Assembly: GCF_006538745.1 (NCBI RefSeq)
Contig: NZ_BJLR01000012.1
Span: 1-38,909, forward strand
Direction: 5' to 3'
Length of the DNA: 38,909 nt
DNA from: Cellulomonas cellasea
Lineage (GTDB): Bacteria; Actinomycetota; Actinomycetes; Actinomycetales; Cellulomonadaceae
Shown here: positions 13,448-34,526 of the stretch, one piece after another
Position numbering within the stretch: position 1 is the stretch's first letter
How the letters are laid out: each line of letters starts with the position of its first letter
Translations under genes and position numbers: made by a program
The notes under the pieces: generated by a model
What the model was told of the DNA's origin: nothing
The model's input: only the letters and a program-made list of their open reading frames with translations
Databases searched by the model: none

Positions 13448-13467
13448 TCGAGGATCCTTCTCCTCGA
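13448..13467. promoter_or_regulatory. 20-bp dyad in the aceA/ramB divergent promoter
   Basis: TCGAGGA (13448-13454) and TCCTCGA (13461-13467) form perfect 7-bp arms around a 6-base centre. It lies 90 bp from the aceA start and about 31 bp from the proposed regulator start, so it is a candidate operator. It does not match the AAAGTTTGCAAA-like RamB box known in Corynebacterium, although a TTGCA appears closer to aceA (about 13394-13398, minus strand). Confidence 0.4.
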
Positions 13468-13498
13468 CAGAAGCAGAGCCCGTCTGCGACCGTCGAGC

Positions 13499-20866: not shown

Positions 20867-21574
20867 TCAGCCCCCGGCGACGCTGAGCACCGGTGGTTCC
20901 CCGCAGCGGGGGACCGCCGGTGCGTCGGCGCGCACGGCGTCGTCCACTTCGCCCGGGTCCCGCGCACCGCGGCGCGGTCGGAGGCGCGACCGCAGCCGCA
21001 GCCGCACGACACGGTCGAGGACGAGCCCGAGCAGCAACCCCCCGACGACCCCGACGCCCGCGACGACCGCCGGGTGCTGCCCGGCGAGCAGGTGCCCGGC
21101 CCCGACCCCGAGCAGCACCGAGTACCCCGCCCACAGCACCGCGGCCAGCGCGGCGATCGCGCTGAACCGTCCGCGCGGGAACCCGACGGCGCCCGCGGCC
21201 ATGTTGACGAGCACCCGGCCCCCCGGCGTGAACCGTGCGGCGAGGATGAGCACGCCGCCGCGCCGGGCGAGCGCGCCCTCGGCCCACGCGAGCACGTGCT
21301 GCGCGCGCCGCGAGCGCACGAGGCTGCGGCCGCCCCGGGGCAGCCGGCGTCCGAGGGTGTACGCGACCTGGTCGCCCGCGAACGCCCCGAGCGCCGCGAC
21401 GGACCCGACGGCCCACAGCCCGGGTCCCCGGCCCGCGGTCGACAGCGCGGCGAGGGCCACGACGGCCGACTCGCTCGGGACCGGCGGGAAGAACCCGTCG
21501 ACGGTCGTGACGACGCCGAGCAGCAGCACGGCCCACGGGGTGTCCGCGAGCTGCGCGACCCAGTCGGCCGTCAT
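20867..21574 (-). CDS. DedA-family (SNARE-associated/VTT) membrane protein
   Basis: The 235-residue protein has the DedA pattern: an N-terminal hydrophobic segment, FFPPVPSESAVVALAALS, GDQVAYTLGR, a re-entrant region with ARFTPGGRVLVNMAAGAVGFP and several C-terminal helices. DedA/VTT proteins are linked to membrane lipid flipping and proton-dependent homeostasis. The C-terminal 40 residues are Arg/Pro-rich and not typical. The ATG at 21574 overlaps the stop of a 23-codon leader ORF (ATGA), so translation is probably coupled. It is convergent with the DUF1996 gene, and a large hairpin lies inside its last codons. Confidence 0.88.
   Translation of the reverse strand: MTADWVAQLADTPWAVLLLGVVTTVDGFFPPVPSESAVVALAALSTAGRGPGLWAVGSVAALGAFAGDQVAYTLGRRLPRGGRSLVRSRRAQHVLAWAEGALARRGGVLILAARFTPGGRVLVNMAAGAVGFPRGRFSAIAALAAVLWAGYSVLLGVGAGHLLAGQHPAVVAGVGVVGGLLLGLVLDRVVRLRLRSRLRPRRGARDPGEVDDAVRADAPAVPRCGEPPVLSVAGG
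20887..20923 (+). terminator. large hairpin inside the 3' end of dedA
   Basis: The 18-base arms 20887-20904 and 20906-20923 pair over their full length with two G:T wobbles. The plus-strand hairpin begins 42 bases after the DUF1996 stop and would terminate that gene, while on the minus strand the same bases encode the DedA C-terminus. Confidence 0.6.
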
Positions 21575-21642
21575 GCGACGCCCCCGCGCGGGCCCGGCAC
21601 GGCGCCCAACTCGTGCCGTGGGTGCGCGCCGTCCGCCGTCAT
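21571..21642 (-). CDS. leaderless 23-codon leader ORF coupled to dedA
   Basis: A consensus-like promoter (TTGACT, 17 bases, GAGGAT) ends six bases before the ATG at 21642, so this ATG should be the first base of the transcript. The frame encodes a 23-residue Gly/Pro/Arg-rich peptide beginning MTADGAHPRHELG. Its TGA (21573-21571) overlaps the dedA ATG as ATGA. This geometry suggests that translation of the leader delivers ribosomes to dedA, which has only a G-rich stretch as its own site. No regulatory codon run is seen. Confidence 0.5.
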   Translation of the reverse strand: MTADGAHPRHELGAVPGPRGGVA

Positions 21643-21648
21643 GCCCCG

Positions 21649-21677
21649 ATCCTCCCGGCGCACCTATCGACAGTCAA
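21649..21677 (-). promoter_or_regulatory. promoter of the dedA leader transcript
   Basis: Reading leftwards, TTGACT (21677-21672) and GAGGAT (21654-21649) are 17 bases apart. The ATG follows six bases after the -10. Confidence 0.6.
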
Positions 21678-21691
21678 TCGGTTTCTGTCGA
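21667..21691. promoter_or_regulatory. dyad over the dedA -35 region
   Basis: TCGACAG (21667-21673) and CTGTCGA (21685-21691) are perfect 7-bp arms around an 11-base spacer, in an unusually AT-rich patch. The left arm overlaps the -35 hexamer of the dedA leader promoter, so a bound protein would repress it. The nitroreductase gene starts 125 bp to the right. Confidence 0.4.
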
Positions 21692-21815
21692 CATTCGGTG
21701 AACACGAGGCGAAGGTCCGGCGACGCTCATCGGCGCCCTCCGCGCGCGGTGGTGCTGTGACGGACGCCACCGCCGCCGTCGGAATCGCGCACCGGCATTG
21801 ACGCTTCAAGTAATC

Positions 21816-22460
21816 ATGACGACCGACACCCTGAGCCCGTCCGAGACCCCGCTCCTCCTCGACGCGCAGACCGCCGACCTCCTCTTCCGGGAGGCCCGCA
21901 CGGTCAACACGTTCTCCCCCGACGAGATCACCGACGAGCAGCTCGCCGCCGTCTACGACCTCGTCCGCTGGGGACCGACGGCGATGAACATCAGCCCGTT
22001 GCGTGTGCTCGTCGTCCGCACGCCCGAGGGCCGCGAGCGCCTCGCCGCGCACATGGCCGACGGCAACCGCGCCAAGACCGAGCGCGCGCCGCTGAGCCTC
22101 GTCGTCGCGACGGACGTCGACTTCCACGAGCACATGGGCCGCCTGGCCCCGCACATGGGCGCGGTCGCCGAGGGACTCGCCGGCGCCCCCGAGGCGCGCG
22201 CCGCGATGGCCCGCGACAACGCGTTCCTGCAGGTGGGCTACCTGATCGTGGGGCTGCGCGCCGCCGGGCTGCACGCCGGGCCCATGGGCGGCTTCGACGC
22301 CGCCGCGCTCGACGCCGACCTGCTCGCCGGCACGTCGTGGCGCTCGGTCCTCGTCATCAACGTCGGCCAGGCTCCCGCCGAGCACGACGACCTCCAGACG
22401 CCCTCGACGTACCCGCGCCAGACGCGCCTCGACTTCGCCGAGGTCGCCCGCACCGTCTGA
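21816..22460 (+). CDS. nitroreductase-family protein (malonic semialdehyde reductase-like)
   Basis: The 214-residue protein matches the RutE-like branch of the nitroreductase fold. It has an N-terminal FREARTVNTFSPDEITDEQL, the FMN-site segment WGPTAMNISPLRV, then NAFLQVGYLIVGLRAAGLHAGPMGGFD and a C-terminal VLVINVGQ strand. Members use FMN and NAD(P)H; RutE reduces malonic semialdehyde in pyrimidine degradation, but no other rut gene is present, so the substrate here is open. ATG 21816 is preferred to the upstream ATG at 21798 because family members begin near this point. It is convergent with a MarR gene. Confidence 0.85.
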   Translation: MTTDTLSPSETPLLLDAQTADLLFREARTVNTFSPDEITDEQLAAVYDLVRWGPTAMNISPLRVLVVRTPEGRERLAAHMADGNRAKTERAPLSLVVATDVDFHEHMGRLAPHMGAVAEGLAGAPEARAAMARDNAFLQVGYLIVGLRAAGLHAGPMGGFDAAALDADLLAGTSWRSVLVINVGQAPAEHDDLQTPSTYPRQTRLDFAEVARTV

Positions 22461-22540
22461 CGGCACGCCGGACCGGCCGACTGCACGCCGGCACCGCCGG
22501 GCAGCGCGACCCGCAGCACGAGCGGTCGCCCGCACCGCCT

Positions 22541-22571
22541 GAGCCCGGCCCGACCCCCCGGGGCCGGGTTC
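22541..22571. terminator. bidirectional terminator between nitroreductase and MarR genes
   Basis: GAGCCCGGCCC (22541-22551) pairs with GGGCCGGGTTC (22561-22571) over 11 bp with one wobble. It overlaps the stop codon of the convergent marR-type gene. Confidence 0.6.
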
Positions 22572-23031
22572 AGCCCTCGCTCGAGAGCACCTTGATCGCG
22601 CGCTCGAGCAGGGAGCGCAGCTGCTCCTGGTCCTCGCGGTCGAACTCCGCGGAGAGCCGGTCCTCGACGGCCCGCGCCGCGGCGTCCGCCTCGCTGAGCA
22701 CGGCCCGACCGGTGCGCGTCAGCTCCGTCACGAGCACCTTCTTGTGCACGGAGGACGGGTCGCGCCGGATGAGCCCCTTCGTCTTGAGGTTGCCGAGCAC
22801 GGTCGCCATGGTCTGCGGCGTGACCATGCACGCCCGCGCGAGCTGGGCGCCGGAGAGTCCCGGGGAGTAGGACAGGACCATGAGCGCGGCGTACTGCGGC
22901 ACCGTCAGGTCGAACGGCCGCAGCGCCTGGCTCTTGCGCGCGATGAGCGCCTGCTCGGCCCGCTTGATCGACTGCCCCAGGCGCGCGGCGATCTCCGCCT
23001 CGATCCTGGCCGACTCCGCCTTGCTGCTCAT
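22570..23031 (-). CDS. MarR-family transcriptional regulator
   Basis: The 153-residue protein has an N-terminal dimerisation helix (IKRAEQALIARKSQALRPFD), a winged helix with LSGAQLARACMVTPQTMATVLGNLKTKGLI as the recognition part, a short wing (VHKKVLVTELTRTG) and a C-terminal coiled helix. The ATG at 23031 has GAAGGGG upstream. A -10-like TAGGCT and a GCTGATCAGC palindrome lie about 45-60 bases before the start. It follows the MDR reductase gene of the afsA-type locus on the same strand and is convergent with the nitroreductase; either could be its target. Confidence 0.88.
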   Translation of the reverse strand: MSSKAESARIEAEIAARLGQSIKRAEQALIARKSQALRPFDLTVPQYAALMVLSYSPGLSGAQLARACMVTPQTMATVLGNLKTKGLIRRDPSSVHKKVLVTELTRTGRAVLSEADAAARAVEDRLSAEFDREDQEQLRSLLERAIKVLSSEG

Positions 23032-23072
23032 GGGACCCCTTCGTCGCGTCGTGTCAGGGCTCTGATTGACGT

Positions 23073-23088
23073 GCTGATCAGCCTACTG
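23073..23088 (-). promoter_or_regulatory. promoter and palindrome of the second MarR gene
   Basis: Reading leftwards, TAGGCT (23088-23083) fits a -10 box and is followed at once by the 10-bp palindrome GCTGATCAGC (23082-23073), at the expected transcription start. This could be an autoregulatory MarR site. Confidence 0.4.
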
Positions 23089-23139
23089 GTCCCCACCGGA
23101 CCACGGTTTCCCTCCGGTCACCAATCGGCGCGCGACCCG

Positions 23140-24147
23140 TCACCCGACTGCCGGGCGGGGCCGGGAGCGTGCGCCGGGGCCCTCGACGCGCAGCACGTGC
23201 GTGCCCGTCGAGGCCCGTGACTCGAGCGCCGCGTGGGCCAGGGCGACGTCCGCGAGCGGGTGCTCGGTCACGTCGAGCCCGACGGTCCCGTCCGCGACCG
23301 CGTGCAGCGCCTCGGTGAGGTACGTCCGCAGCCGCTCGGGTTCGGCGGCCGCCAGAGCGCCGAGGTTGTGGCCGACGAGGCTCGTCCCCGTGAGCCACAC
23401 GGCGTTCGTGGAGGTGACGACGTCGGTCGCGGACGCGTCGCCGTAGACCACGTGCCGCCCGCCGAACCCGAGGGTCGCCGCCGCGGCCCGCCGGACCGGA
23501 CCGCCGACCGCGTCGAGCACGACGTCGACCCGTCGCCCGCCGAGCAGGTCGTCCAGGTCGCCGAGCTCGTCGTACGTCACGACGTGCCGGGCACCCCAGC
23601 TGCGGGCCGCGGCCCGCTTGGCGCCGTGCCCGACGGCGGCCAGCACGGTCGCCCCCTGCGCGACCGCGAGCTGGACCGCCGCCGAGCCGACACCACCGGC
23701 CGCGGCGAGGACGAGGACCGTCTCGCCCGGCTGGACGTGCGCCGCCTCGAGGAGCCCCCAGGCGGTGGTCACGCTGCACGGGACCGCGGCCGCGACGGCG
23801 TCCGAGAGCCGGTCGAGCTCGCCCTCGAGCGCGACGACCGTCGACTCCGGCGCGATTACGAGCTCCGCTCCCCCACCGCCGGCCAGAGTCAGTGCCGCGA
23901 CCCGCTGACCGGGGCGCAGGGTCGTCACCGCGTCGCCGACCTCGACGACCCGGCCGCTGACCGCGAGCCCCGGGACGTGCGGGAGGCTCACCGGGAGCTG
24001 ACCCCGGCGGAGCATCACCTCGGCGAACGTGACGCCCGCGCACACCACCTCGAGCAGCACGTCCGCGCGCCCCGGCACGGGCTCCGGGACCTCGGCGACG
24101 CGGAGGACCTCCGGCGGGCCGTGCTCGGAGAACTGGACGGCGCGCAC
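23140..24147 (-). CDS. MDR quinone/enone reductase-like protein
   Basis: The 335-residue medium-chain dehydrogenase/reductase has a GroES-like half (VRAVQFSEHGPPEVLRVAEV, HVPGLAVSGRVVEVG). Its Rossmann half carries LAAAGGVGSAAVQLAVAQGA for NADPH binding. Zinc ligands are absent. It starts at GTG 24147 with GGAGGAG six bases upstream; a longer upstream frame has no ribosome site. It lies downstream of the HAD phosphatase, monooxygenase and afsA-type genes on the same strand. In that setting an NADPH enone reductase could reduce a butenolide double bond, but this is inference from context. It is only distantly similar to the MDR at 8091-9029. Confidence 0.85.
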   Translation of the reverse strand: MRAVQFSEHGPPEVLRVAEVPEPVPGRADVLLEVVCAGVTFAEVMLRRGQLPVSLPHVPGLAVSGRVVEVGDAVTTLRPGQRVAALTLAGGGGAELVIAPESTVVALEGELDRLSDAVAAAVPCSVTTAWGLLEAAHVQPGETVLVLAAAGGVGSAAVQLAVAQGATVLAAVGHGAKRAAARSWGARHVVTYDELGDLDDLLGGRRVDVVLDAVGGPVRRAAAATLGFGGRHVVYGDASATDVVTSTNAVWLTGTSLVGHNLGALAAAEPERLRTYLTEALHAVADGTVGLDVTEHPLADVALAHAALESRASTGTHVLRVEGPGARSRPRPAVG

Positions 24148-24270
24148 GGCGGCTCCTCCTGAGGGTCGGTCGGGGCGGACGGGACGGGCGGGAGCGGCGG
24201 TAGCGCGCACCCGCTCACCGGCGCGGCCCGCCGCACCCGCCCTCGTGAGGCCCCGACCTCGACGCCCCTC

Positions 24271-24309
24271 GCACCGGAGCGGCCGCGCGAGCGGCGCGCG
24301 TCCCGGTGC
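24271..24309 (-). terminator. hairpin after the HAD gene
   Basis: GCACCGG (24271-24277) pairs with CCGGTGC (24303-24309). The interior carries further self-complementary CGCGCG stretches, giving a long GC stem about 18 bases after the HAD stop. It would partly insulate the MDR gene. Confidence 0.4.
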
Positions 24310-24326
24310 CGCCGAGGCCGGGGCTG

Positions 24327-25082
24327 TCAGCGGGCCCCGGCCCCCGCACGGACCGGGTCGGCGGGCGCCGCGAGCGGACCGTCGCCGACGAGGACGTCCC
24401 AGCCGCGCTCGCGTGCGAGGCGGGTGAGCGTCGCGTCGGCGCCGACGACGACCGGCGTGCGGACCTGCTCGAGCATCGGCAGGTCGGACTCGTGGTCCCC
24501 GTACGCCCACGAGGGCGTGCCGGGCGGCAGCTCGTCGAGCACCGCGGCGACCGCGGCCGCCTTCGCGTCGCCGATCATCGGGGTGCCGAGCCAGCCGGTG
24601 TACCGCCCGTGCGCGATCTCGGGGCGCGAGCACAGCACGCGGTCGACGCCGAGGTGCGCGGCGACGGGCTCGAGGCACGCCGGGAAGGAGCCGGAGACGA
24701 GCACGACCGTGCGGCCCGCGGCGCGGTGCACGTCGAGCTGCGCGTGGACCGCGGCGTCGACGAAGCCCTGCACGAGCACCTGCGCGAACCAGCGGCGCCC
24801 GGCGGCGGCCATCTCGGCGACCGGCTCGCCGGCGATGAGCCGGTAGTAGGCCGCGTTGGCCTCCTCGCGCGGGAGGTCCGCGCGCAGCAGGTCCGCGAGC
24901 GCGTCGAGGCTGCGGGCCCGCTCGACCGGGGCGAAGCCGCGGACGTAGTACTCGTAGAACGACACGAGGCTCGTGAGCCGCAGGAGCGTGCCGTCGACGT
25001 CGAAGAAGGCGATGCCGGCCGGCTCGTCACCGCCCTGGGCGGACGCCGGGCCGTCGGGGAGACGGGGGATGGTGGCGGTCAT
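24327..25082 (-). CDS. HAD-IB family phosphatase (SerB-like)
   Basis: The 251-residue protein carries all HAD motifs: motif I FFDVDGTLL (nucleophile D28, acid/base D30), motif II LVSGSF, the conserved lysine in GDAKAAAV and motif III/IV GDHESDLPML. A helical cap lies between motifs I and II, as in the IB subgroup of phosphoserine-type phosphatases. It has its own AT-rich promoter with a dyad, 138 bp downstream of the monooxygenase. Butanolide synthesis by AfsA-type enzymes needs an unassigned dephosphorylation step, so this is a candidate phosphatase for that pathway, by context only. ATG 25082 has GGAGG upstream. Confidence 0.85.
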   Translation of the reverse strand: MTATIPRLPDGPASAQGGDEPAGIAFFDVDGTLLRLTSLVSFYEYYVRGFAPVERARSLDALADLLRADLPREEANAAYYRLIAGEPVAEMAAAGRRWFAQVLVQGFVDAAVHAQLDVHRAAGRTVVLVSGSFPACLEPVAAHLGVDRVLCSRPEIAHGRYTGWLGTPMIGDAKAAAVAAVLDELPPGTPSWAYGDHESDLPMLEQVRTPVVVGADATLTRLARERGWDVLVGDGPLAAPADPVRAGAGAR

Positions 25083-25145
25083 GTCAGCCTCCAGGTGAGC
25101 ACGGTGCAGAGCTGGCGAGCGACGGCCGCGGCCTCCGTCGGTCCC

Positions 25146-25192
25146 GACACTATCAGAACGCGTATGTGTAGCAGAACCCTGACACATAGTGT
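25146..25192 (-). promoter_or_regulatory. promoter and operator region of the HAD gene
   Basis: This AT-rich patch contains TATGTGT (25163-25169) and ACACATA (25182-25188), a 26-bp dyad with perfect 7-bp arms. A wider ACACTAT/ATAGTGT pair occupies 25147-25153 and 25186-25192, and CAGAAC is repeated. A -10-like TAGTGT reads leftwards at 25152-25147. GACACTATCAG (25146-25156) recurs almost unchanged in the afsA promoter. Confidence 0.5.
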
Positions 25193-25220
25193 TCAGCGCA
25201 CGTTCGCGCACCCGACCCGC

Positions 25221-26834
25221 TCACGCCGGAGGACGCGCCGCCACCGCCGCCGTACCCGCCGTCGCGGCACCCGCACCCGTCGCCGCCGTCGCCGCCGCCG
25301 GGAGCACCGCAAGGACCGCGTCGACGGTCGTCGCGGTCCCGCCGAGGGCGCCGTGCGCCGCGAGGTGCCCGTCCGGCCGCACGAGCAGGAACCGCGGCGC
25401 CCTGCCCAGCACGCGCTGCAGCGCCGGCGAGACGAGCGGCGCGAGGTCGGTCACATGGACGTCGGGGAGCTCGGCGGCGAGCGTCCCGGCGCGCCCCGGG
25501 TCCGCCGCACGGCCCGAGCGTCCCGGCCACAGCAGCAGCGTCCACGCGTCGGCGTCGAGCACCGGCCACGCGCGCGCCGCCGGCCAGCCGGCGCCGTCGT
25601 CCACGAACGCCGGGACCCGGTCCCCCACCCGCAGCCCGCGGGTCCGCAGGAGCGGCGTACGCCCGGGCGCGTAGCTCGTGTCGAGCTGGGCGAACATCGG
25701 CGCGGCGCGCCGGAGCAGCCGCGTCCGGTCCGCGACGACCACGCCGGCGTCACGCAGCCGCCGGCGCCACGGGCTGCCCAGGAGACCCAGCCGCGTCTGC
25801 ACGCCGGTCGCGGCGGTGACCCGCACGGCCGCCGCGCGGCGCTCGGTCTCGTAGGTGTCGAGCAGCGCGTCAGGGGCCTCGCCGCGGATCACGGCCGCGA
25901 GCTTCCAGCCGAGGTTCACCGCGTCCTGGATGCCGGTGTTCATGCCCTGACCGTTGGCCGGGCTCATGATGTGCGCGGCGTCGCCCACGAGGAAGCACGA
26001 GCCCGTCCGGAACGCCCCGGCCGTCCCGAAGCGCACCGCGAAGGCCGCGGTCCACTCGGGCTCGCCGACCGTGCCCGAGCCCGGTGCCCGCTCGTCGAGC
26101 AGGCGCTGGAACAGCTCGCGCGGCGGCGGCGGGCCCTCGGCCGTGGGCAGGCTCATCGCGACCCGGTAGACGCCCTCGCGCAGCGGGGCGAGGCCGATCA
26201 TCCCGGCGCCGGACCAGAAGTAGTGCACCGTGCGGTCGGACGGCCCGCCCTCGACGGGGGCGTCGCAGATGCCGAACGCGACGTTGACGGGGGCGGCCGC
26301 GAACGGCACGTCGAGGAGGCGGCGCACCGTGCTGTGCGCGCCGTCCGCGCCGATCACCCAGTCGAACCGCTCGTAGGTCACCTCGCCCGCCGCACCGCGC
26401 AGGGACACGTGCGGGCCCCCGTCGCGCGGGTCGGGGTGCGACAGCACGAGCAGCTCGGTGCCGGTCTCGACGGTCCCGCCGAGCTCGACGACCCGCTGCG
26501 CGAGGATCTCCTCGGTCGCGGTCTGCGGGATCGTCACCGCGAACGGGTAGAGCGCGTCGGGGATCGTGCCGATCCGCACGGTGCCCTTGCGCTTCCCCTC
26601 GGACCAGAACGCGACGGCGTCGACCCGGTGCCCGCGCTCGACCAGCCGCGGCGTCACGCCGGTGCGGCGCAGGAGCTCGAGCTGGCGCGGCCAGAGGATC
26701 GCCGCCCGGGAGTGCGCCGGGGCCTGCGTGCGCTTGTCGACGACGCGCACGCCGATCCCGCGCCGCAGCAGCTCGCACGCCAGGACGAGACCGACGGGCC
26801 CGGCGCCCACGACCAGGACGCGGGGCTCAGGCAC
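25221..26834 (-). CDS. FAD-dependent aromatic-hydroxylase-type monooxygenase
   Basis: The 537-residue flavoprotein shows the PHBH-fold motifs: an N-terminal GxGxxG (VVGAGPVGLVLACELLRRG), the DG motif (GADGAHSTVRRLL) and the GD motif (FLVGDAAHIMSPANGQGMNTGIQDAVNLGWKL). A C-terminal thioredoxin-like extension is typical of group A hydroxylases of about 530 residues. The last 25 residues are Ala/Thr-rich. GTG 26834 lies 30 bp after the afsA-type stop, so the two genes are probably co-transcribed. The substrate is unknown. In this locus it could tailor a signalling molecule or hydroxylate an aromatic. Confidence 0.9.
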   Translation of the reverse strand: MPEPRVLVVGAGPVGLVLACELLRRGIGVRVVDKRTQAPAHSRAAILWPRQLELLRRTGVTPRLVERGHRVDAVAFWSEGKRKGTVRIGTIPDALYPFAVTIPQTATEEILAQRVVELGGTVETGTELLVLSHPDPRDGGPHVSLRGAAGEVTYERFDWVIGADGAHSTVRRLLDVPFAAAPVNVAFGICDAPVEGGPSDRTVHYFWSGAGMIGLAPLREGVYRVAMSLPTAEGPPPPRELFQRLLDERAPGSGTVGEPEWTAAFAVRFGTAGAFRTGSCFLVGDAAHIMSPANGQGMNTGIQDAVNLGWKLAAVIRGEAPDALLDTYETERRAAAVRVTAATGVQTRLGLLGSPWRRRLRDAGVVVADRTRLLRRAAPMFAQLDTSYAPGRTPLLRTRGLRVGDRVPAFVDDGAGWPAARAWPVLDADAWTLLLWPGRSGRAADPGRAGTLAAELPDVHVTDLAPLVSPALQRVLGRAPRFLLVRPDGHLAAHGALGGTATTVDAVLAVLPAAATAATGAGAATAGTAAVAARPPA

Positions 26835-26864
26835 GAGCGCGCTCCGGGGACAGCGGCGCGGGGC

Positions 26865-27862
26865 TCACGCGATCGCCCTGCGGACCGCGAGCGGGCCGGG
26901 CAGCGTGTCGAGCGCGAGCTCGATCGTCGCGGCGGCGCGGTCGCCCTGGACGACGCGTACCGCGGCGGTCGAGCGCGGCGGGTGGTCGGGAGCGGCCCGC
27001 ACCGGCGGCGAGGGGAGCTCCAGGTGCAGCACCGTCGGCTCGTCGAGCTCGACGTACTGCAGGAACCGGCCCGTGATCGCGCTGACGTGCGTGTGCTGCG
27101 TCGAGAGCCCGTGGGTGTCCGCGAGCGCGACGAGGGCGAGCTGGCGGGCCGCCTCGGTGAGCACCATCGCGGGCACGTGGTCCTGCGCGTGGTCGAACAG
27201 GCTCGGGTTCGCGAACGGCAGGCGCAGGACGCCACGGACCTCGCGCTCGTCGGCCTCGACCGAGGTCAGCACGACGTTGCGCTCGTTCGTGCGCGCGACC
27301 AGCGCGGGCTCGACGGGCGGCGGGACCGGGGTGTCGCGCAGGCCGGCGCTCGTGACGAGCGTGGTGCGGCGGCGCGTGTCGCGCAGCGCCCGGTAGGCCA
27401 TCGGCGAGGCGAACATGACCTCGGTCGACAGGTGCCCGACCTCGGACTCCCCCACGGGCTGCTCGACGAAGAGCGTGACCCGGTAGGTCAGCGAGCGCAG
27501 CACCCCGTGCACCGTGCGGGGCTGCTCGATCTCGACGAGCAGGCGCAGCGTCGGGGGCGCGTAGCCGACCGGGATCTCGCCGATCCCGGGGAACGCCATG
27601 TCCCACGAGCGCAGGACGAAGTGCTGGCCGAGCGGGACGCCGAGGTACGCGTGCGCGACGAGCGTCTCCGCCTGCCGGCAGCACTCGAGCAGCAGCAGCG
27701 GGTCGACGCGCGGGACCCGGCCGGTGTGGTCGCCGAAGTAGCCGTGCTGCGGGGGGAGCTGGGCGCCGACCGGTGGACGAGCCGGCGGTCCGCGGTCGTC
27801 CGGTCGCTGAGCCCCGCACCGCCGAGCGTGGTCCGCGGTCGTTCGAGGGACTCGGTGACCAT
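26865..27862 (-). pseudogene. afsA-type hotdog gene, disrupted near the 5' end
   Basis: From a well-placed ATG (27862, preceded by AGGGGGAAG) the frame reads into a family-like N-terminus ending in RRLVHR. It then runs into a nonsense frame with a stop at 27488. The other AfsA landmarks continue in a different frame directly after LVHR: VGAQLPPQHGYFGDH, DPLLLLECCRQAE, AHAYLGVPLGQHFVLRS, then the second hotdog repeat with LFDHAQDHVPAMVLTEAARQ, to the stop at 26865. Family members normally have about 20 residues between LVHR and GAQLP. A deletion of roughly 60 bp, of length 3n+1, therefore seems to have shifted the frame. An in-frame ATG at 27881 without a ribosome site could still yield a 338-residue variant. 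AfsA enzymes condense a beta-ketoacyl group with dihydroxyacetone phosphate. Confidence 0.75.
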
Positions 27863-27941
27863 GTACTTCCCCCTGAAGCATGAGCGGAGCCGAAGCCGGG
27901 CCGTCCTCCCGGCGCACGGAGCACGTGCCGACGTGCGTCTG

Positions 27942-27980
27942 CTGACACCTATCAGTGCTCTGTGAACCGTTCGGACAGTA
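27942..27980 (-). promoter_or_regulatory. afsA promoter with two dyads
   Basis: Reading leftwards, TACTGT (27980-27975) is a -10 candidate. It overlaps an imperfect dyad (CTGT 27960-27963, GAACCGTTC 27964-27972, ACAG 27975-27978) of about 19 bp, the size range of autoregulator-receptor sites. Further in, CTGACACCTATCAG (27942-27955) contains GACACCTATCAG, nearly identical to the GACACTATCAG element at the HAD promoter. Confidence 0.4.
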
Positions 27981-28034
27981 GCAGAGGCCTCCCGGCCCAA
28001 ACCAGCGACAAAGGGATGAACGAGACACGTCGTC

Positions 28035-28054
28035 GAAGCGCTTCCGGATACCGT
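28035..28054 (+). promoter_or_regulatory. promoter with GAAGCGCTTC palindrome
   Basis: GAAGCGCTTC (28035-28044) is a 10-bp palindrome with a central CG, as bound by LacI-family repressors. It lies just upstream of a -10-like TACCGT (28049-28054) for the reductase gene starting at 28125. Confidence 0.4.
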
Positions 28055-28124
28055 CGCCGCGGGTGTCGGAGGTGCGCCCGGAGCGGTCGGGAACATGTCG
28101 GGGCCGCCCGCGGTTCACGCCGTC

Positions 28125-28772
28125 ATGACGACCCTCGGACTGATCGGCAGCGGACACATCGGCGGGACGCTCGCGCGCCTCGCCGTCGAGCACGGGTACG
28201 ACGTGGTGGTGAGCAACTCGCGCGGGCCGGAGACCCTCACGGACCTCGTCGCCGAGCTGGGCGACCGGGCGCGCGCCGGGACGGCCCAGGAGGCCGCCGA
28301 GGCGGGGGACGTCGTCGTCGTGACGATCCCGCTCAAGGCCTACCGGAGCGTCCCCGTCGAGCCGCTCGCGGGCAAGGTCGTGATCGACACGAACAACTAC
28401 TACTGGCAGCGCGACGGCCGGATCCCCGAGCTCGACGCCCAGGAGACGACGAGCGCGGCGCTGCTCCAGGAGCACCTGCCGCAGTCGCACGTCGTCAAGG
28501 CGTTCAACCACATCACCGCCGCCGACCTCGGCTCGCGCAGCACGCCCGCCGGGACGCCCGGTCGGCGCGCGCTCGCCGTGGCGTCCGACCACGACGACGC
28601 CAAGGCCCGGGTCAGCGCGCTGCTCGACGAGCTCGGCTTCGACCCCGTCGACGCCGGCACGCTCGCGGACAGCTGGCGCATCGAGCCCGGGACGCCCGGC
28701 TACGGGCCCGACCTCGACGCCGACGGGCTGCGCGCCGCCCTCGCCGCGGCCACGCGGGACGCCGCCGCCTGA
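28125..28772 (+). CDS. NADPH-dependent F420 reductase-like Rossmann protein
   Basis: The 215-residue protein starts with a dinucleotide-binding fold (TLGLIGSGHIGGTLARLA) and an NSRGPETL segment expected to bind the NADP 2'-phosphate. It continues with VVVTIPLKAYRSVP, DTNNYYWQRDGRIPEL and VVKAFNHI, as in F420-dependent NADP reductases and related NAD(P)-binding proteins. The exact substrate is uncertain. It is divergent from the afsA-type gene, 262 bp apart, so it could supply a reductive step to that locus or be unrelated. ATG 28125 matches family starts; an ATG at 28095 with a slightly better ribosome site would add ten residues. Confidence 0.85.
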   Translation: MTTLGLIGSGHIGGTLARLAVEHGYDVVVSNSRGPETLTDLVAELGDRARAGTAQEAAEAGDVVVVTIPLKAYRSVPVEPLAGKVVIDTNNYYWQRDGRIPELDAQETTSAALLQEHLPQSHVVKAFNHITAADLGSRSTPAGTPGRRALAVASDHDDAKARVSALLDELGFDPVDAGTLADSWRIEPGTPGYGPDLDADGLRAALAAATRDAAA

Positions 28773-28819
28773 CCCCGGCCGGGCCCCCCACGCGGCGCCC
28801 GCGAACCGCACGACCACCC

Positions 28820-28854
28820 GCCCGCCCGGCACGCCCTCGCGCTGCCGGGCGGGC
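28820..28854 (+). terminator. terminator after the F420 reductase-like gene
   Basis: GCCCGCCCGGC (28820-28830) and GCCGGGCGGGC (28844-28854) form a perfect 11-bp stem, plus one A-T pair, with an 11-base loop. It starts 47 bases after the stop codon. Confidence 0.65.
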
Positions 28855-28950
28855 GCCTGCGTGGGTGCCTGACCTCCGAGGAGAGGACTCTCACCCGCTG
28901 CTGGACGCCTGCCCAGGCGGGATCGGCCCGGGAGTGCCAAGGTGTGCGCC

Positions 28951-29733
28951 ATGAACACGTCAGTGCGCTCCGCGGCAGCCGGAGCGGGCAACCACCGCCT
29001 CCTCGAGACGGGGGCACGCCTCGGCTACGCCGCGAGCGGGCTCCTGCACCTGCTCATCGCGTTCGTCGCGCTCCAGCTCGCGTGGTCGACCGGCGCGCAG
29101 GAGGCCAGCCAGGCCGGCGCGCTCCAGACGCTCGCGAGCACCGGCCCGGGCTCCGTCGCGCTGTGGGTCATGGTCGTCGGGCTCGCGCTGCTCGGCCTCT
29201 GGCAGCTCACCGAGGCCGCCGTGCTCCAGGAGACGGGCGACCGGCTCAAGGCCGCCGGCAAGGGCGTCGTCTACCTCGTGCTCGCGTGGACGGCGTTCGG
29301 CGTCGCGCGCGGCTCGGGCTCGGGCGGCGGCTCCGACCAGTCGATGAGCGTCACCGCGTCCCTCATGGAGAAGCCGTTCGGCCTCGTGCTGGTCGGCGCC
29401 GTGGGCCTCGGCATCGTCGCCGTCGCCGTCTACCACCTGCACAAGGGCTGGAAGAAGACGTTCCTGCGCGACCTCACCGGGCACCCCGGCACGTTCGTCG
29501 TGCGCGCGGGGCAGGCCGGGTACGTCGCCCGCGGCATCGCGCTCGGGATCGTCGGCGTGCTGCTCGTGTCCGCCGCGCTGACGCACGACCCGGCGCAGTC
29601 CCAGGGGCTCGACGGCGCCCTGCGCGCGCTGCTCGACGCGCCGTTCGGCAAGCTCCTGCTGACCCTCGTCGCGCTCGGCTTCGCGGCGTTCGGCGTCTAC
29701 TCCTTCGCGCGCGCCCGGTACGCGCGCGTCTGA
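28951..29733 (+). CDS. DUF1206 membrane protein
   Basis: The 260-residue protein has six hydrophobic segments arranged as three helix pairs, the DUF1206 pattern. Each pair starts with an ARxGYxxxG-like element: GARLGYAASGLLHLLIAF, then KAAGKGVVYLVLAW, then RAGQAGYVARGIALG. The function of the family is unknown. A Gly/Ser-rich loop (GSGSGGGSDQS) lies in the middle. ATG 28951 has AAGGTG seven bases upstream; a GTG nine bases earlier is possible. It is a single-gene unit. Confidence 0.9.
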   Translation: MNTSVRSAAAGAGNHRLLETGARLGYAASGLLHLLIAFVALQLAWSTGAQEASQAGALQTLASTGPGSVALWVMVVGLALLGLWQLTEAAVLQETGDRLKAAGKGVVYLVLAWTAFGVARGSGSGGGSDQSMSVTASLMEKPFGLVLVGAVGLGIVAVAVYHLHKGWKKTFLRDLTGHPGTFVVRAGQAGYVARGIALGIVGVLLVSAALTHDPAQSQGLDGALRALLDAPFGKLLLTLVALGFAAFGVYSFARARYARV

Positions 29734-29803
29734 CCTCGTCGGCACCCCACGGCGCTCCCGGTCCCCGGGGGTGCCGCGCGGGTGCGGACGGCGCCGCCGG
29801 CCC

Positions 29804-29831
29804 GGCCCCGGGACAACGACGTCCCGGGGTC
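29804..29831. terminator. bidirectional terminator between DUF1206 and glycerophosphodiesterase genes
   Basis: CCCCGGGAC (29806-29814) and GTCCCGGGG (29821-29829) pair perfectly around a 6-base loop, and the stem extends by a wobble and a G-C pair on the outside. It sits in the middle of a 179-bp gap between convergent genes. Confidence 0.65.
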
Positions 29832-29914
29832 CGGCCACGTGGCGGCGGTCGGGTCAACCGGCCGCGACGGGCGGGCCGGCGCCGGTCCGGGGGTCCGGCC
29901 ACGCGGCGGCGGTC
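29826..29914. repeat. 25-bp direct repeat, two copies
   Basis: The 25-bp sequence at 29826-29850 recurs at 29890-29914 with one substitution (T to C in the CCACGTGG/CCACGCGG part). The copies are 64 bp apart. The first overlaps the terminator stem and the second ends in the glycerophosphodiesterase stop codon. Confidence 0.6.
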
Positions 29915-30695
29915 AGCGCCAGGTACCGCGCTCGCGCAGCACGTCGCGCAGGAGGTCCGCGCGGTCGGTGACCAGTCCGTCGACGCCGAGGTCCAGCAGC
30001 GCGCGCATCTGCGCCGGGTCGTTCACCGTCCACACGTGCACCTGGCGGCCCGCCGCGTGCGCCGCCGCGACCGTGCCGGCGTCGACGACCCGCAGCCGCC
30101 CCTGCGCGACCGGGACCTGGAGGCAGTCGACGGCGCGCAGCGCCCGGGCCGCCGCTCGGGTCAGCCCGGTGCGGCGGCCCGCGACGAACCGTGCCACCTC
30201 CCCCGTCGCCGCCGACGTCGCGACGGGGCGGGTCAGCGCGGCGAGGGTCGCCCGGCGCCGGGCCGCCGAGAACGACGCGACGCAGACCCGGTCGTGCGCC
30301 CGCGTGCGCTCGATCGCCGCCGCGACCGGGGCGGCAGCGCGCGCGTCCTTGACGTCGACGTTGACCCGCAGCCCGGGCCACGTGCCGAGCACGTCCTCGA
30401 GCAGCGGGACCGGCTCGCGACCCCCGATGAGCGCGCGCCGCACCGTCGCCCACGGGAGGTCCCCGACGCGGCCGCGCGCGTCCGTCGTCCGGTCGAGCGT
30501 CGCGTCGTGCAGGGCGACGGCCACGCCGTCGGCGGTCGCGTGCGCGTCCGTCTCGACGTACCGGAACCCGAGGTCGCGGGCCGCCGCGAACGCCGCGAGG
30601 GAGTTCTCCCCGCCGTCGGGCGCGAAGCCGCGGTGCGCGAGCGCGACGAACCCGCTGGGGTCGTCGAGGTAGGGGTGCCGGGGGGTGCCGGTCAT
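29913..30695 (-). CDS. glycerophosphodiester phosphodiesterase
   Basis: The 260-residue enzyme has the GDPD TIM-barrel motifs: AHRGFAPDGGENSLAAF (catalytic histidine and metal glutamate), VETDAHATADGVAVALHDATLDRTT (metal ligands and second catalytic histidine), VNVDVK and VHVWTVND near the end. It hydrolyses deacylated phospholipids to glycerol-3-phosphate and an alcohol. No signal peptide is seen, so it is cytoplasmic (UgpQ-like). Translation is probably leaderless: TAGGGT ends six bases before the ATG at 30695. Confidence 0.92.
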   Translation of the reverse strand: MTGTPRHPYLDDPSGFVALAHRGFAPDGGENSLAAFAAARDLGFRYVETDAHATADGVAVALHDATLDRTTDARGRVGDLPWATVRRALIGGREPVPLLEDVLGTWPGLRVNVDVKDARAAAPVAAAIERTRAHDRVCVASFSAARRRATLAALTRPVATSAATGEVARFVAGRRTGLTRAAARALRAVDCLQVPVAQGRLRVVDAGTVAAAHAAGRQVHVWTVNDPAQMRALLDLGVDGLVTDRADLLRDVLRERGTWR

Positions 30696-30701
30696 GGGGC
30701 G

Positions 30702-30707
30702 ACCCTA
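30702..30707 (-). promoter_or_regulatory. -10 box of leaderless glycerophosphodiesterase gene
   Basis: Reading leftwards, TAGGGT is followed by six bases (CGCCCC) and the ATG at 30695. No ribosome-binding site intervenes. Confidence 0.55.
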
Positions 30708-30821
30708 GTCGCGGGGCGAGGGGGGACGGGTGCGGGACAGCGCCGGAGAGGGTCGATCTCGACGTGCGACACGCCGCGCGAGCGGTCGGGGAGAACTCGT
30801 CCGAGATCCCTTCGCCCGAGG

Positions 30822-30848
30822 TGTCCTCCTCGCGGGATCCCGTTCGTC
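30822..30848 (+). promoter_or_regulatory. candidate ECF promoter of the YciI-sigma operon
   Basis: TGTCCT (30822-30827) and CGTC (30845-30848) are 17 bases apart, resembling TGTC...CGTC promoters of ECF sigma factors. The first YciI gene starts about 52 bases downstream. This would allow autoregulation by the operon's own sigma factor. Confidence 0.35.
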
Positions 30849-30899
30849 GTGCCAGTACGGAGCCGCCCCGACCCGGGGTGCACGATCCAGGAGGTCCCC

Positions 30900-31229
30900 A
30901 TGCAGTTCGTGATGCTCGTCCGTGTCGACCCGACCGCGACCCCCACGCCCGACGAGAGCGACCCGAACGCCTGGGTCGACGTGCACGTCCCGCGCCTGGG
31001 CAAGCGCCTCGAGGGCAACGGCCTGCGCGACGTCGAGACCGCCACGACGGTCCGGGTCCGCGACGGGCGCACGGTCGTCGCCGACGGCCCGTTCGCCGAG
31101 TACAAGGAGATCGTCGCGGGCTACGACCTCATCGAGGCCGAGAGCATCGACCGCGCCGTCGAGATCGCCGCGCTGCACCCGGTGGCCCGCTTCGGGTCGA
31201 TCGAGGTGCGCGAGGTCTGGCCGTTCTGA
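30900..31229 (+). CDS. YciI/DGPF-family protein, copy 1
   Basis: The 109-residue protein is a single YciI-like ferredoxin-fold domain (MQFVMLVRVDP start) with the DGPF signature in VADGPFAEYKEIVAGYDLIEAES. Such proteins are encoded next to ECF42-type sigma factors and are thought to modulate them or act in the same stress response; their biochemical activity is unclear. ATG 30900 has AGGAGG six bases upstream. It is the first gene of a three-gene operon. Confidence 0.92.
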   Translation: MQFVMLVRVDPTATPTPDESDPNAWVDVHVPRLGKRLEGNGLRDVETATTVRVRDGRTVVADGPFAEYKEIVAGYDLIEAESIDRAVEIAALHPVARFGSIEVREVWPF

Positions 31230-31296
31230 GCCGGACGCTCCGCACCGCACCGGCACCGGCCCGGCACCCTTCCCGTCGCACTCCCCAGGAGGAACC

Positions 31297-31626
31297 ATGC
31301 AGTACATGCTTCTGATCGCCGCCGTCCCCGACGCCCCCGCGCACGAGCCCGACCGGACGCCCCCGACCGCGTGGGTCGAGGAGATGCAGCAGCGCGGCGT
31401 CGACCGCGGCGGCTACCGGCTCCGGCTGCCCGACGAGGCCTGCACGGTGCGGGTCCAGCGCGGCGAGACCCTCGTCGTGCACGGCCCCTACGCCGAGGCC
31501 GCCGAGCAGGTCGCCGGCATCGGGATCATCGAGGCCGCCGACCTGGACGAGGCGATCGAGATCGCCGCGAAGCACCCGTCGGCCGGCCAGGGCGCGATCG
31601 AGATCCGGCCGCTGTGGGCGGAGTGA
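31297..31626 (+). CDS. YciI/DGPF-family protein, copy 2
   Basis: The 109-residue protein is a diverged paralogue of the gene 67 bp upstream (MQYMLLIAAVPD start). The signature reads HGPYAEAAEQVAGIGIIEAADLDEA, so DGPF has become HGPY. ATG 31297 has AGGAGG five bases upstream. Its TGA overlaps the GTG of the sigma-factor gene (GTGA), which shows tight translational coupling. Confidence 0.92.
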   Translation: MQYMLLIAAVPDAPAHEPDRTPPTAWVEEMQQRGVDRGGYRLRLPDEACTVRVQRGETLVVHGPYAEAAEQVAGIGIIEAADLDEAIEIAAKHPSAGQGAIEIRPLWAE

Positions 31627-32879
31627 CCGACGTCGACGCGGCCCTCACCTCGGCGTTCAGCGCCGAGTGGGGGCGCGTCGTCGCGACCCTGATCCGGCTC
31701 ACGGGCGACTTCGCGCTCGCCGAGGACGCCGCGCAGGACGCCTTCGTCGCGGCCGCCAAGCGGTGGCCGGTCGACGGCGTGCCCGACCGGCCGGGCGCGT
31801 GGCTCACGACCACGGCACGCAACGGCGCGCTGGACCGTCTCCGGCGCGCGACCACAGAGGCACGCAAGCTCCGGGAGGTGGCGGCGATGGAGGCGCTCGA
31901 GCTGCACGGCCACGTCGCGGAGGACCCTGCCGACGGCACCGGGAGCGCCGTGACCGACGACCGGCTGCGGCTCATCTTCACGTGCTGCCACCCGGCGCTC
32001 CCGCTCGAGTCCCGGGTCGCGCTGACGCTGCGGACCCTGTGCGGGCTCACGGTCCCGGAGATCGCGCGGGCGTTCGGCGTCGGCGAGGCGGCGATGACCA
32101 AGCGGCTCGTGCGGGCCCGGCAGAAGATCGCGCAGGCCGGGATCCCGTACCGCGTCCCGGCCGACGACGTGCTGCCCGAGCGGCTCGACGGGGTGCTCGC
32201 GGTGCTCTACCTGCTGTTCACCGAGGGCTACTCGGCGACCGCGGGGCCCGGGGTCGTGCGGGAGGACCTGTCCGCGGAGGCGATCCGGCTCACGCGCGTG
32301 CTCGCCGAGCTCGTGCCCGACGACGCCGAGGTGCACGGCCTGCTCGCGCTCGAGCTCGCGCACGACGCCCGGCGCGCCGCCCGGACCGACGCCGCGGGCG
32401 AGCTCGTCCCGCTCGAGGAGCAGGACCGCGCGCGCTGGGACGCCGGCCAGGCCGCGGACGCCGCCGCGGTGCTGCACCGCGCGCGGACGCTCACCGCGGA
32501 GCCCGGGCCGTACCTGCTGCAGGCGGAGGTCGCGGTGCGGCACGCGACGGCGGCGACCCCGGAGGCGACGGACTGGGCGGCGATCGCGGCGGTCTACGCC
32601 CGGCTCGCGCGCCGGGCGCCGTCCCCGTACGTCGAGCTCAGCCGCGCGGTCGCGGTCGCGATGGCCCACGGGGTCGACGCCGGGCTCGCGCTGCTCGACC
32701 AGCTCGGGGCGTCCGGGGGGCTCGACGGCAACCACTACCTCCCGGCGGCGCGCGCGGACCTCCTGCGGCGGGCCGGGCGGCACCCCGAGTCGGCCGAGGC
32801 GTACCGCGCGGCGCTCACCCGCGTGACGAACGACGCCGAGCGGCGGTACCTGCGGCGGCGGCTCGCGGAGGTGTCGTGA
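31623..32879 (+). CDS. ECF42-type sigma factor with C-terminal extension
   Basis: The 418-residue protein has sigma-2 (about 8-80: LIRLTGDFALAEDAAQDAFVAAAKRWP, WLTTTARNGALDRLRR) and sigma-4 (about 125-180: LRTLCGLTVPEIARAFGVGEAAMTKRLVRARQKI). A long C-terminal DUF6596/TPR-like extension follows, with LFTEGYSAT and a final NDAERRYLRRRLAEV. Linkage to YciI/DGPF genes and this extension define the ECF42 group, which lacks a classical anti-sigma factor; the extension is thought to control activity. The GTG at 31623 overlaps the preceding stop. Confidence 0.93.
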   Translation: MTDVDAALTSAFSAEWGRVVATLIRLTGDFALAEDAAQDAFVAAAKRWPVDGVPDRPGAWLTTTARNGALDRLRRATTEARKLREVAAMEALELHGHVAEDPADGTGSAVTDDRLRLIFTCCHPALPLESRVALTLRTLCGLTVPEIARAFGVGEAAMTKRLVRARQKIAQAGIPYRVPADDVLPERLDGVLAVLYLLFTEGYSATAGPGVVREDLSAEAIRLTRVLAELVPDDAEVHGLLALELAHDARRAARTDAAGELVPLEEQDRARWDAGQAADAAAVLHRARTLTAEPGPYLLQAEVAVRHATAATPEATDWAAIAAVYARLARRAPSPYVELSRAVAVAMAHGVDAGLALLDQLGASGGLDGNHYLPAARADLLRRAGRHPESAEAYRAALTRVTNDAERRYLRRRLAEVS

Positions 32880-33003
32880 GGGGTCTGCGGCGCAGTCCGG
32901 CGTCCCGGTCGCACCCTGCGGCTGCCCGGTCGGCGGGCCGGGGCGACGGGGTGCAGCAATCAGCACGACCCGGGCCGGTGGCGACGCCTACCATCTGGCT
33001 CTT

Positions 33004-34269
33004 GTGAGCCGCCTCGTCGAGACCGTCGTCCCCGGGCGCCTCGGCGTGTCCTTCCGGTGGCTCGTGACCTCCGCGTTCGTCACGAACCTCGGTGACGGGC
33101 TCGCGCTCGCCGCCGGGCCGCTGCTCGTCGCGTCGCTCACGGACGACGCCCGGCTCGTCGCCCTCGCCGCGACGCTGCAGTGGCTGCCGCCGCTGCTGTT
33201 CGGGCTGTTCGCGGGTGCGATCACCGACCGGCTCGACCGTCGGCTCATCGTCGTGTCGGTCGACGGCGCGCGCGCCGTCGTGCTCGGGGTGCTCGCCGCG
33301 GTGATCGCGACCGGGCACGTGTCGATCGCGATCGTGCTGGGCTCGCTGTTCCTGCTCGGCACCGCCGAGGTCTTCGCGGACAACGCGTCGGGGACGCTCG
33401 TGCCGACGCTCGTGCACCGCGACGACCTCGCGGTCGCGAACTCCCGCATCCAGACGGCGTTCCTCACGATGAACCAGCTCGCCGGGCCGCCGATCGGCGC
33501 GGCGCTGTTCGCGGCCGGGACGGTGCTGCCGTTCGGCACCCAGGCGGTCGCCGTGCTGCTCGGCGCGGTGCTCGTCTCGCGCGTCGTCCTGCCCGCGCGG
33601 GACCCCGCCGACGAGGCGCCCCGCACGCACCTGCGCCACGACATCACGGAGGGCTTCCGGTGGGTCACGCACCACGCGGCGGTCCGCACCCTCGTCCTGA
33701 CGATCCTCATCTTCAACGTGACGTTCGGCGCCGCGTGGTCGGTGCTCGTGCTCTACGCGACCGAGCGGCTCGGGCTCGGCGAGGTCGGCTTCGGGCTGCT
33801 CACGACCGTGGGCGCGGTCGGCGGGCTCGCCGGGACCGCGTCGTACGGCTGGATCACGCGGCGCGTGAGCCTCGGTGACCTCATGCGGATCGGGCTCGTC
33901 ATCGAGACGCTCACGCACCTCGCGCTCGCGCTGACCCGGACGGCGTGGGTCGCGCTCGCGATCTTCTTCGTCTTCGGGGCGCACGCGTTCATCTGGGGCA
34001 CGACGTCGGTCACGGTGCGCCAGCGCGCGGTCCCGACGGCGCTCCAGGGCCGGGTCGGGAGCGTCCACCTCGTCGGGGTCTTCGGCGGGCTGGTCGTCGG
34101 CTCGGGGATCGGCGGGCTGCTCGCCGAGCGCTGGGGCGTGACGGCGCCGTTCTGGTTCGCGTTCGCGGGATCGGCCGTGTTCGTCGTGCTGCTGTGGCGC
34201 CAGCTCGCGCACATCGCGCACGCCGACGAGGCACCGGTGGCCGCCGCGGCTCCGGTCGCCGACGACTAG
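33004..34269 (+). CDS. MFS exporter (MFS_3/EntS-like)
   Basis: The 421-residue protein has about 12 hydrophobic segments. The MFS loop 2-3 motif appears as GLFAGAITDRLDRRLIVV. Other features (FVTNLGDGLALAAGPLLVASLT at the start, NSRIQTAFLTMNQLAGPPIGAALF in the middle) fit the MFS_3 group of drug or siderophore exporters. The substrate is unknown. GTG 33004 follows TACCAT (32989-32994) by nine bases with no ribosome site, so the mRNA is probably leaderless or nearly so. It starts 124 bp after the sigma-factor gene and may be part of its regulon. Confidence 0.9.
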   Translation: MSRLVETVVPGRLGVSFRWLVTSAFVTNLGDGLALAAGPLLVASLTDDARLVALAATLQWLPPLLFGLFAGAITDRLDRRLIVVSVDGARAVVLGVLAAVIATGHVSIAIVLGSLFLLGTAEVFADNASGTLVPTLVHRDDLAVANSRIQTAFLTMNQLAGPPIGAALFAAGTVLPFGTQAVAVLLGAVLVSRVVLPARDPADEAPRTHLRHDITEGFRWVTHHAAVRTLVLTILIFNVTFGAAWSVLVLYATERLGLGEVGFGLLTTVGAVGGLAGTASYGWITRRVSLGDLMRIGLVIETLTHLALALTRTAWVALAIFFVFGAHAFIWGTTSVTVRQRAVPTALQGRVGSVHLVGVFGGLVVGSGIGGLLAERWGVTAPFWFAFAGSAVFVVLLWRQLAHIAHADEAPVAAAAPVADD

Positions 34270-34400: not shown

Positions 34401-34526
34401 ATGGACACGACGTTCGAGGACTTCGACGAGGCGGCGCACGAGGCGCCGGCGACGAAGGAGGAGACGCAGGCGCACGGCAGGCGTCACACCGCCGGCGAGT
34501 GGTTCTCTCGGGACCGCTGGTCGTGA
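34401..34526 (+). CDS. small ORF translationally coupled to the SARP regulator
   Basis: The frame encodes 41 residues (43 if it starts at GTG 34395). The N-terminal half is acidic (MDTTFEDFDEAAHEA) and the C-terminus is basic and aromatic (HTAGEWFSRDRWS). A GGGGGC stretch precedes it. Its TGA overlaps the GTG of the regulator as GTGA. There is no signal peptide, cysteine or membrane segment. I do not recognise the family. It may be a leader that couples translation, a small partner or ligand of the regulator, or a peptide precursor; the aromatic, basic end is its most distinctive feature. Confidence 0.55.
   Translation: MDTTFEDFDEAAHEAPATKEETQAHGRRHTAGEWFSRDRWS

Follow-up and report, generated by a model that had tools for sequence, protein, structure and literature searches.

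A five-gene unit around afsA

The contig NZ_BJLR01000012.1 of Cellulomonas cellasea (38,909 nucleotides; hereafter the window) is a complete contig of a 4.73-Mb, 50-contig, high-GC genome. Its minus strand carries, in this order, afsA, the genes for a group A FAD monooxygenase (FMO), a HAD-IB phosphatase and an MDR reductase, and marR, that is, four enzyme genes and a regulator (Table 1). An original prediction, made from the DNA alone, had read the locus as a possible source of a butanolide-like signal outside Streptomyces. Pfam confirms the families named there (AfsA, FMO, HAD, MDR, F420-type reductase and MarR). The predicted arrangement, with the genes on one strand and a reductase gene divergent from them, also holds, but the afsA frame is interrupted by a 61-bp deletion.

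The gaps between consecutive genes, from afsA to marR, are about 30, 138, 182 and 108 bases; they would suit a single transcript and leave no space for an acyl carrier protein (ACP) gene. AfsA is a putative phosphorylated-butenolide synthase, and the MDR protein, which matched TIGR02824 with a score under the NCBIfam cut-off, is a candidate enone reductase. The window's FMO carries GxGxxG, DG and GD motifs, which we take to be those of group A enzymes, and its HAD protein has what are presumably the catalytic motifs of that family. Upstream of marR and afsA, the window has one imperfect pair of inverted repeats, the sister species described below has one short pair, and the two share none.

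Table 1. Features of the unit and its neighbours (window coordinates).
Feature	Position	Strand	Evidence
afsA, two AfsA hotdog domains, frameshifted	26865..27862	-	PF03756 x2, E 1.4e-38
Junction of the 61-bp deletion relative to the sister species	27771..27772	-	Alignment with sister locus L009
Group A FAD monooxygenase (FMO)	25221..26834	-	PF01494 FAD_binding_3, E 5.7e-70
HAD-IB phosphatase	24327..25082	-	PF12710, E 2.9e-36; NCBIfam TIGR01490/TIGR01488
MDR reductase, PIG3/quinone-oxidoreductase-like	23140..24144	-	PF00107 ADH_zinc_N, E 2.6e-19; PF08240
MarR-family regulator, final gene of the unit	22570..23031	-	PF12802, E 2.1e-11
Divergent NADPH/F420-type reductase, neighbour	28095..28772	+	PF03807 F420_oxidored, E 1.6e-19
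Malonic semialdehyde reductase-like nitroreductase, convergent neighbour	21816..22460	+	NF003768 over cut-off

The afsA deletion and the sister species

A second genome of the genus (the sister species) shares the neighbourhood at about 85–93% DNA identity in the main blocks. All five of its frames are open, afsA included, and its AfsA scores 207.3 bits against NF041195 (ScbA/BarX), for which the cut-off is 200. No PDB sequence relative of this AfsA was found at E 1. In the window, 61 bp of the sister's afsA are absent at 27771/27772, near the 5' end. From the likely ATG start at 27862, the original frame stops after 124 amino acids, at 27488, and the AfsA domains run in a different frame, ending at 26865. 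Because of this frameshift, the first AfsA domain match begins only at position 25 of the Pfam profile.

These results indicate that afsA looks broken in this strain and that the first pathway step is probably dead. A search of the 50-contig assembly gave no further AfsA match. Only if the 61 bp were lost in assembly could the strain still make an ordinary AfsA; the data fit both a real deletion and an assembly error. If the deletion is real, the cassette is silent in this strain.

The proteins of the two species are 90–98% identical, with the exception of MDR (72%). The MDR gene (24144–23140 in the window, 13243–14256 in the sister locus L009) is thus far more diverged than its neighbours, without a frameshift, and may reflect either faster evolution or replacement.

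Borders and distribution within the genus

Where does the unit end? The DNA of window positions 20867–34269 was searched against the seven genomes of the genus. Among the matches listed, long ones in about 22524–28070 occurred only in the sister species, and the five other congeners gave none longer than 185 bases in that interval. On the other hand, the nitroreductase gene has DNA relatives in all five congeners without afsA, and the divergent reductase is 58–74% identical to proteins of three such congeners. Since the long matches listed are confined to the sister and the neighbours also occur in congeners without afsA, the unit is marR-MDR-HAD-FMO-afsA. The nitroreductase was rejected as a member on these grounds, as was the divergent reductase, which the original prediction had placed in the pathway and which is probably not part of the unit. 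Protein searches found AfsA in two of the seven genus genomes and in 6 of 221 genomes of the family, with E below 1e-20 in only three.

Linkage to afsA in other genomes

Linkage was counted by blastp against six-frame open reading frames, with one cut-off for three samples. The pattern sample consisted of 71 AfsA loci retrieved by scanning named genomes with an AfsA alignment, and this alignment included three plasmid loci in which HAD and FMO had been seen beforehand. The class-wide sample consisted of the 60 top-listed AfsA places (AfsA was found in 61 of 394 genomes), with weaker places left out and some stretches shortened by contig ends. As a control, 40 stretches of 20 kb were taken at round coordinates from 16 of these genomes.

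The pattern sample held KASIII in 60 of 71 loci, HAD in 48, FMO in 47 and MarR in 25; MDR followed in 10, an ScbR-type TetR in 7, the divergent reductase in 1 and the nitroreductase in none. The control stretches contained MDR in 3 of 40, HAD and ScbR in 1 each, and FMO, KASIII, MarR and the divergent reductase in none. Fisher tests of the pattern sample against the control, which treat loci as independent although near-copies are not, gave p values of 1.2e-12 for HAD, 1.0e-13 for FMO, 2.5e-6 for MarR and 0.37 for MDR. Both HAD and FMO were present in 45 of the 71 loci, spanning 12 genera, and in all 48 loci with HAD the best match lay on the AfsA strand and downstream of AfsA, at a midpoint distance of at most 1.3 kb in 32. 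The class-wide sample was richest in ScbR (44 of 60), followed by FMO (18), HAD (11), KASIII (9), MarR (4), MDR (4) and the divergent reductase (0). Of its 16 loci without ScbR, 13 hold HAD, FMO or KASIII.

The results show that AfsA, FMO and HAD recur together, often joined by MarR, that this linkage is above chance, and that similar cassettes are common across actinobacteria. This recurrence strengthens the predicted place of the HAD enzyme in the pathway; co-travelling limited to afsA and the monooxygenase was not what we observed for the phosphatase. The location outside Streptomyces, which had been thought worth remark, is ordinary, as 32 of the 71 related loci lie outside that genus.

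Relatives of KASIII (two queries), FabF and MFS proteins were not found in the window or in the sister's 19 kb. Could the unit be what is left of a fuller, acquired KASIII/ACP/AfsA cluster, now reduced and non-functional, with afsA as the latest loss? Such decay would account for the afsA deletion, for the presence of the unit in 2 of 7 genus genomes and for the failure to find in the window the KASIII of most pattern-sample relatives, but the sister species keeps five frames open at the high protein identity given above (MDR apart), and the HAD and FMO motifs of the window are intact. We therefore regard a decaying island as quite improbable.

FMO, MDR and MarR

The FMO was searched for in 118 genomes, with up to 12 candidates scored per genome. 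Its two best foreign matches both lie near an AfsA gene, the first (387 bits, 47% identity) at 1.3 kb and the next (214 bits) at 8.6 kb. The third match, of 212 bits, comes from a genome outside the AfsA list, and the remainder are close behind. In an FMO tree of 104 rows, the window falls in a 13-row group (support 100) that consists solely of AfsA-locus rows and contains none of the 27 genome-wide rows without known AfsA. There the FMOs of the window and the sister cluster with that of Microbacterium paulum (94). Eleven rows came from ScbR loci, 8 of which sit on a different branch and 3 with a large KASIII-type group. The PDB relatives of the FMO include polyketide oxygenases, rifampin and phenol monooxygenases and one named Baeyer-Villiger enzyme and, because they are of several kinds, they do not fix its reaction.

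MDR, predicted to supply the enone reduction, was rejected as a generally conserved partner. Its linkage is near background overall (10 of 71 against 3 of 40), though it is present in 4 of 10 loci of the window's FMO group (p 0.023, in a test chosen after seeing the tree), and its membership in the pathway is uncertain. A second MDR reductase gene of the contig (8091–9029, minus strand), 38% identical to that of the unit across 216 residues, adjoins a second MarR gene (9142–9660, plus strand).

Relatives of the unit's MarR, at 45–59% identity, occur in the 25 pattern-sample loci counted above. MarR was rejected as an AfsA-specific marker: such clusters often include a regulator of this kind, but its presence does not identify them.

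The HAD-IB phosphatase

The sister's HAD was used as a query against 118 genomes. Outside its own genome, five matches of 132–176 bits were followed by a fall to 108, and each of the five shares its contig with an AfsA-type gene about 2–25 kb away (four from the class-wide AfsA list and one, in G677, by profile search). The comparison with methylenomycin was read from Streptomyces anthocyanicus plasmids (L106/L107), on the first of which we take three genes, from their order, to be mmfL, mmfH and mmfP. Sequence identity to the window's HAD is 41% for the presumed MmfP and 47% for another HAD-IB protein of the same methylenomycin-type cluster. The clusters of this type thus hold two HADs of the AfsA-linked kind.

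In an unrooted HAD tree of 102 rows, from which short pieces had been dropped, 28 rows split off with a support of 98 from the 74 that include the window. The 28 comprise 24 genome-wide rows from genomes not listed with AfsA, two own paralogues, one control row and one row 7 kb from an AfsA of the receptor-linked kind described below. The 74 include the presumed MmfP, the second methylenomycin-type HAD-IB and all the other AfsA-locus HADs that were entered. These relationships suggest a dedicated butenolide-phosphate phosphatase but do not establish one, because the tree has no root and in it the window's HAD adjoins the 28-row branch.

The original remark that the phosphatase of such pathways has long been unassigned is half right. 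MmfP, SrrP and SabP appear as phosphatases or candidates in the available parts of PMC7037778, PMC12301235 and PMC7756379, with MmfP-type enzymes as candidates for the dephosphorylation step in the first of these, whereas a non-specific phosphatase is assumed for A-factor-type pathways in the available part of PMC5735094.

Tree placement of AfsA and the receptor

A quick AfsA tree was built from 141 rows (71 from the pattern sample, 60 from the class-wide sample, 9 others and the window). One branch (support 99) sets apart 50 rows, 47 of which have an ScbR-type match within 10 kb; on this receptor-linked side, FMO accompanies 9 rows, HAD 5, KASIII 1 and MarR none. Among the other 91 rows, ScbR is found with only 7, and KASIII with 72, FMO with 62, HAD with 61 and MarR with 33. 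The window and its sister belong to these receptor-poor 91, beside M. paulum (97), whose branch is long. Forcing the two onto the receptor-linked side was rejected with a p-AU of 0.0086, a value flattered by the group having been named after seeing the tree.

The predicted lack of a TetR-type receptor was borne out for the ScbR kind, which two TetR queries did not find in the window or the sister stretch. The best genome-wide match to a third ScbR query scored 52 bits, and the ScbR matches beside AfsA elsewhere score 85–198 bits, in another program than the genome search. A classical ScbR-type locus was rejected on the side of the tree, the p-AU and this receptor match of at best 52 bits.

Could the MarR protein replace the TetR receptor in a butanolide-like autoregulator locus with a hydroxylated signal? 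MarR is a repeated neighbour of AfsA that might act as a receptor, the sister's AfsA exceeds the curated ScbA/BarX cut-off, and a small cassette lacking KASIII would suit a low-level signal. However, the MarR family is not specific to AfsA, the AfsA falls outside the receptor-linked side, the receptor queries gave no ScbR-like match in the window and no more than a weak TetR match in the genome, and most pattern-sample relatives carry a biosynthetic ketosynthase. An autoregulator locus is thus unlikely, and the placement of the AfsA among the receptor-poor rows makes a signal, as originally proposed, the weaker interpretation of the product.

About 6 kb from the unit, on the plus strand (34499–38008), lies a gene for a large AfsR/SARP-like regulator, with HTH, BTAD-, NB-ARC- and TPR-like stretches discerned by eye. 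SARP proteins are classical targets of butyrolactone cascades.

Comparison with known systems

The A-factor and gamma-butyrolactone loci (AfsA-ArpA, ScbA-ScbR) have in common with the window an AfsA-family enzyme and the presumed condensation with dihydroxyacetone phosphate. Unlike them, the window has no ScbR-type receptor that we could find, its AfsA lies on the other side of the tree, and it has its own HAD phosphatase, FMO and MarR regulator.

The methylenomycin furan genes (mmfL-mmfH-mmfP) together with the mmy cluster share with the window the AfsA family and the HAD phosphatases; in addition, an F420-type reductase encoded in the mmy part and the divergent reductase of the window are 37% identical. 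The differences are that the presumed MmfH is annotated to the acyl-CoA dehydrogenase family where the window has an FMO, that the mmy part uses AvrD, and that the methylenomycin regulators are TetR proteins. A search of the methylenomycin-type cluster gave no match to the window's FMO, MDR or MarR, and the presumed mmfH, used as a query, gave a sole match of 31 bits at window positions 8373–8675, outside the unit.

Would the AfsA, flavoenzyme and HAD of the window act as MmfL, MmfH and MmfP do, in a methylenomycin-furan-like pathway to a 2-alkyl-4-hydroxymethylfuran-3-carboxylic acid (AHFCA)? The same three reaction labels, butenolide synthase, phosphatase and flavin-dependent monooxygenase (AhfaH), are given in the available part of PMC7037778, and the HAD shares the side of its 98-support branch with the presumed MmfP. 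This parallel is offset by the annotation of the presumed mmfH, which has no homologue in the unit, by an AfsA only about 26% identical to the presumed MmfL, which sits on the receptor-linked side, and by the ScbR/MmyR-type repressor, which was not found in the window. A furan pathway is accordingly very improbable.

A further likeness is to receptor-poor AfsA clusters such as those on Streptomyces linear plasmids (NZ_CP108163, NZ_CP108444) and in M. paulum, which share with the window the AfsA clade, HAD, FMO and MarR and, in M. paulum, also the MDR and the divergent reductase. They carry KASIII and more (MFS, SDR and cyclase on the plasmids, FabF in M. paulum), whereas the unit has five genes. 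Searches of an open-licence library yielded no product named for such clusters, and we know of none for AfsA clusters of this KASIII/HAD-IB/FMO/MarR kind. The fullest relative is that of M. paulum (L080, 6023–19679), with its parts within 14 kb: a reductase, an MFS-type protein, FMO, AfsA, KASIII, a short, putatively ACP-sized protein, FabF, HAD, a 3-hydroxyacyl-CoA dehydrogenase-like protein, MarR and an MDR match.

Further afield, the killing cluster of Ruegeria pomeroyi DSS-3 (SPOA0342 region), in another phylum, has an AfsA domain and a HAD-IB annotated in one cluster, as in the window, with LysR regulators and no FMO, MDR or MarR annotated as such. In the available part of PMC7426152, killing requires this cluster, no product is named for it, and the authors compare it with signalling systems. 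By analogy, AfsA/HAD-IB-type genes can serve antagonism. The AfsA-like PBS domain of gladiostatin performs, according to the available part of PMC7756379, an AfsA-type condensation for a metabolite, not a hormone, as the terminal domain of a polyketide synthase, unlike the window's AfsA. On a Klebsiella michiganensis plasmid (L033), HAD-IB, an AfsA-domain protein, ACP and asnB are annotated consecutively.

Proposed pathway and significance

The gene content, the linkage, the tree placement, the 2/7 distribution and the frameshift are shown here, whereas the following account of the reactions, the substrate, the ligand of the regulator and what the product does is inferred. An intact AfsA would condense a beta-ketoacyl thioester with dihydroxyacetone phosphate; the first product in AfsA chemistry is a phosphorylated butenolide in the available part of PMC7756379. 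As no KASIII was found and there is no room for an ACP gene, the acyl chain would presumably come from general fatty-acid synthesis. The HAD-IB enzyme would then remove the phosphate, the FMO might oxidise the ring or side chain, and the MDR enzyme could reduce an enone. The set would be under the control of MarR, whose ligand is probably the product or a compound related to it. Because of the tree placement, the failure to find a receptor and the biosynthetic genes that accompany the relatives, a small bioactive metabolite is more likely than an ScbR-type hormone.

We thus favour, with some reservation, a compact, strain-variable specialised-metabolite cassette of a receptor-poor AfsA lineage over a classical butanolide hormone locus. 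Several observations weigh against it. The pattern-sample rates are biased upwards by the seeding, and some loci are near-copies or are in both samples. HAD and FMO are each found in a minority of the class-wide loci, and ScbR and HAD occur together in 3 of these 60. The window's HAD adjoins the branch of non-AfsA rows (support 72 for grouping with the 28), and the best genome-wide MarR matches are not on listed AfsA contigs. Receptors can be unlinked, and the genome-wide search used one receptor query. Lastly, the cassette is leaner than its relatives, with no KASIII found where 60 of 71 pattern loci have one, and may use another substrate.

More tentatively, and possible rather than probable, the receptor-poor AfsA lineage would form a separate and widespread family of natural-product clusters, marked by a HAD-IB phosphatase of its own for butenolide phosphates, oxidation by an FMO and self-sensing through MarR, of which the window and its sister would be a minimal, five-gene form that takes its chain from primary fatty-acid metabolism and makes an undescribed oxidised butenolide. 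The HAD-IB group that accompanies AfsA or AvrD, including the presumed MmfP, is a concrete enzyme family to assay. Furthermore, since AfsA proteins split into a receptor-linked and a receptor-poor side, a locus called "butyrolactone" on the strength of its AfsA is not necessarily a hormone system.

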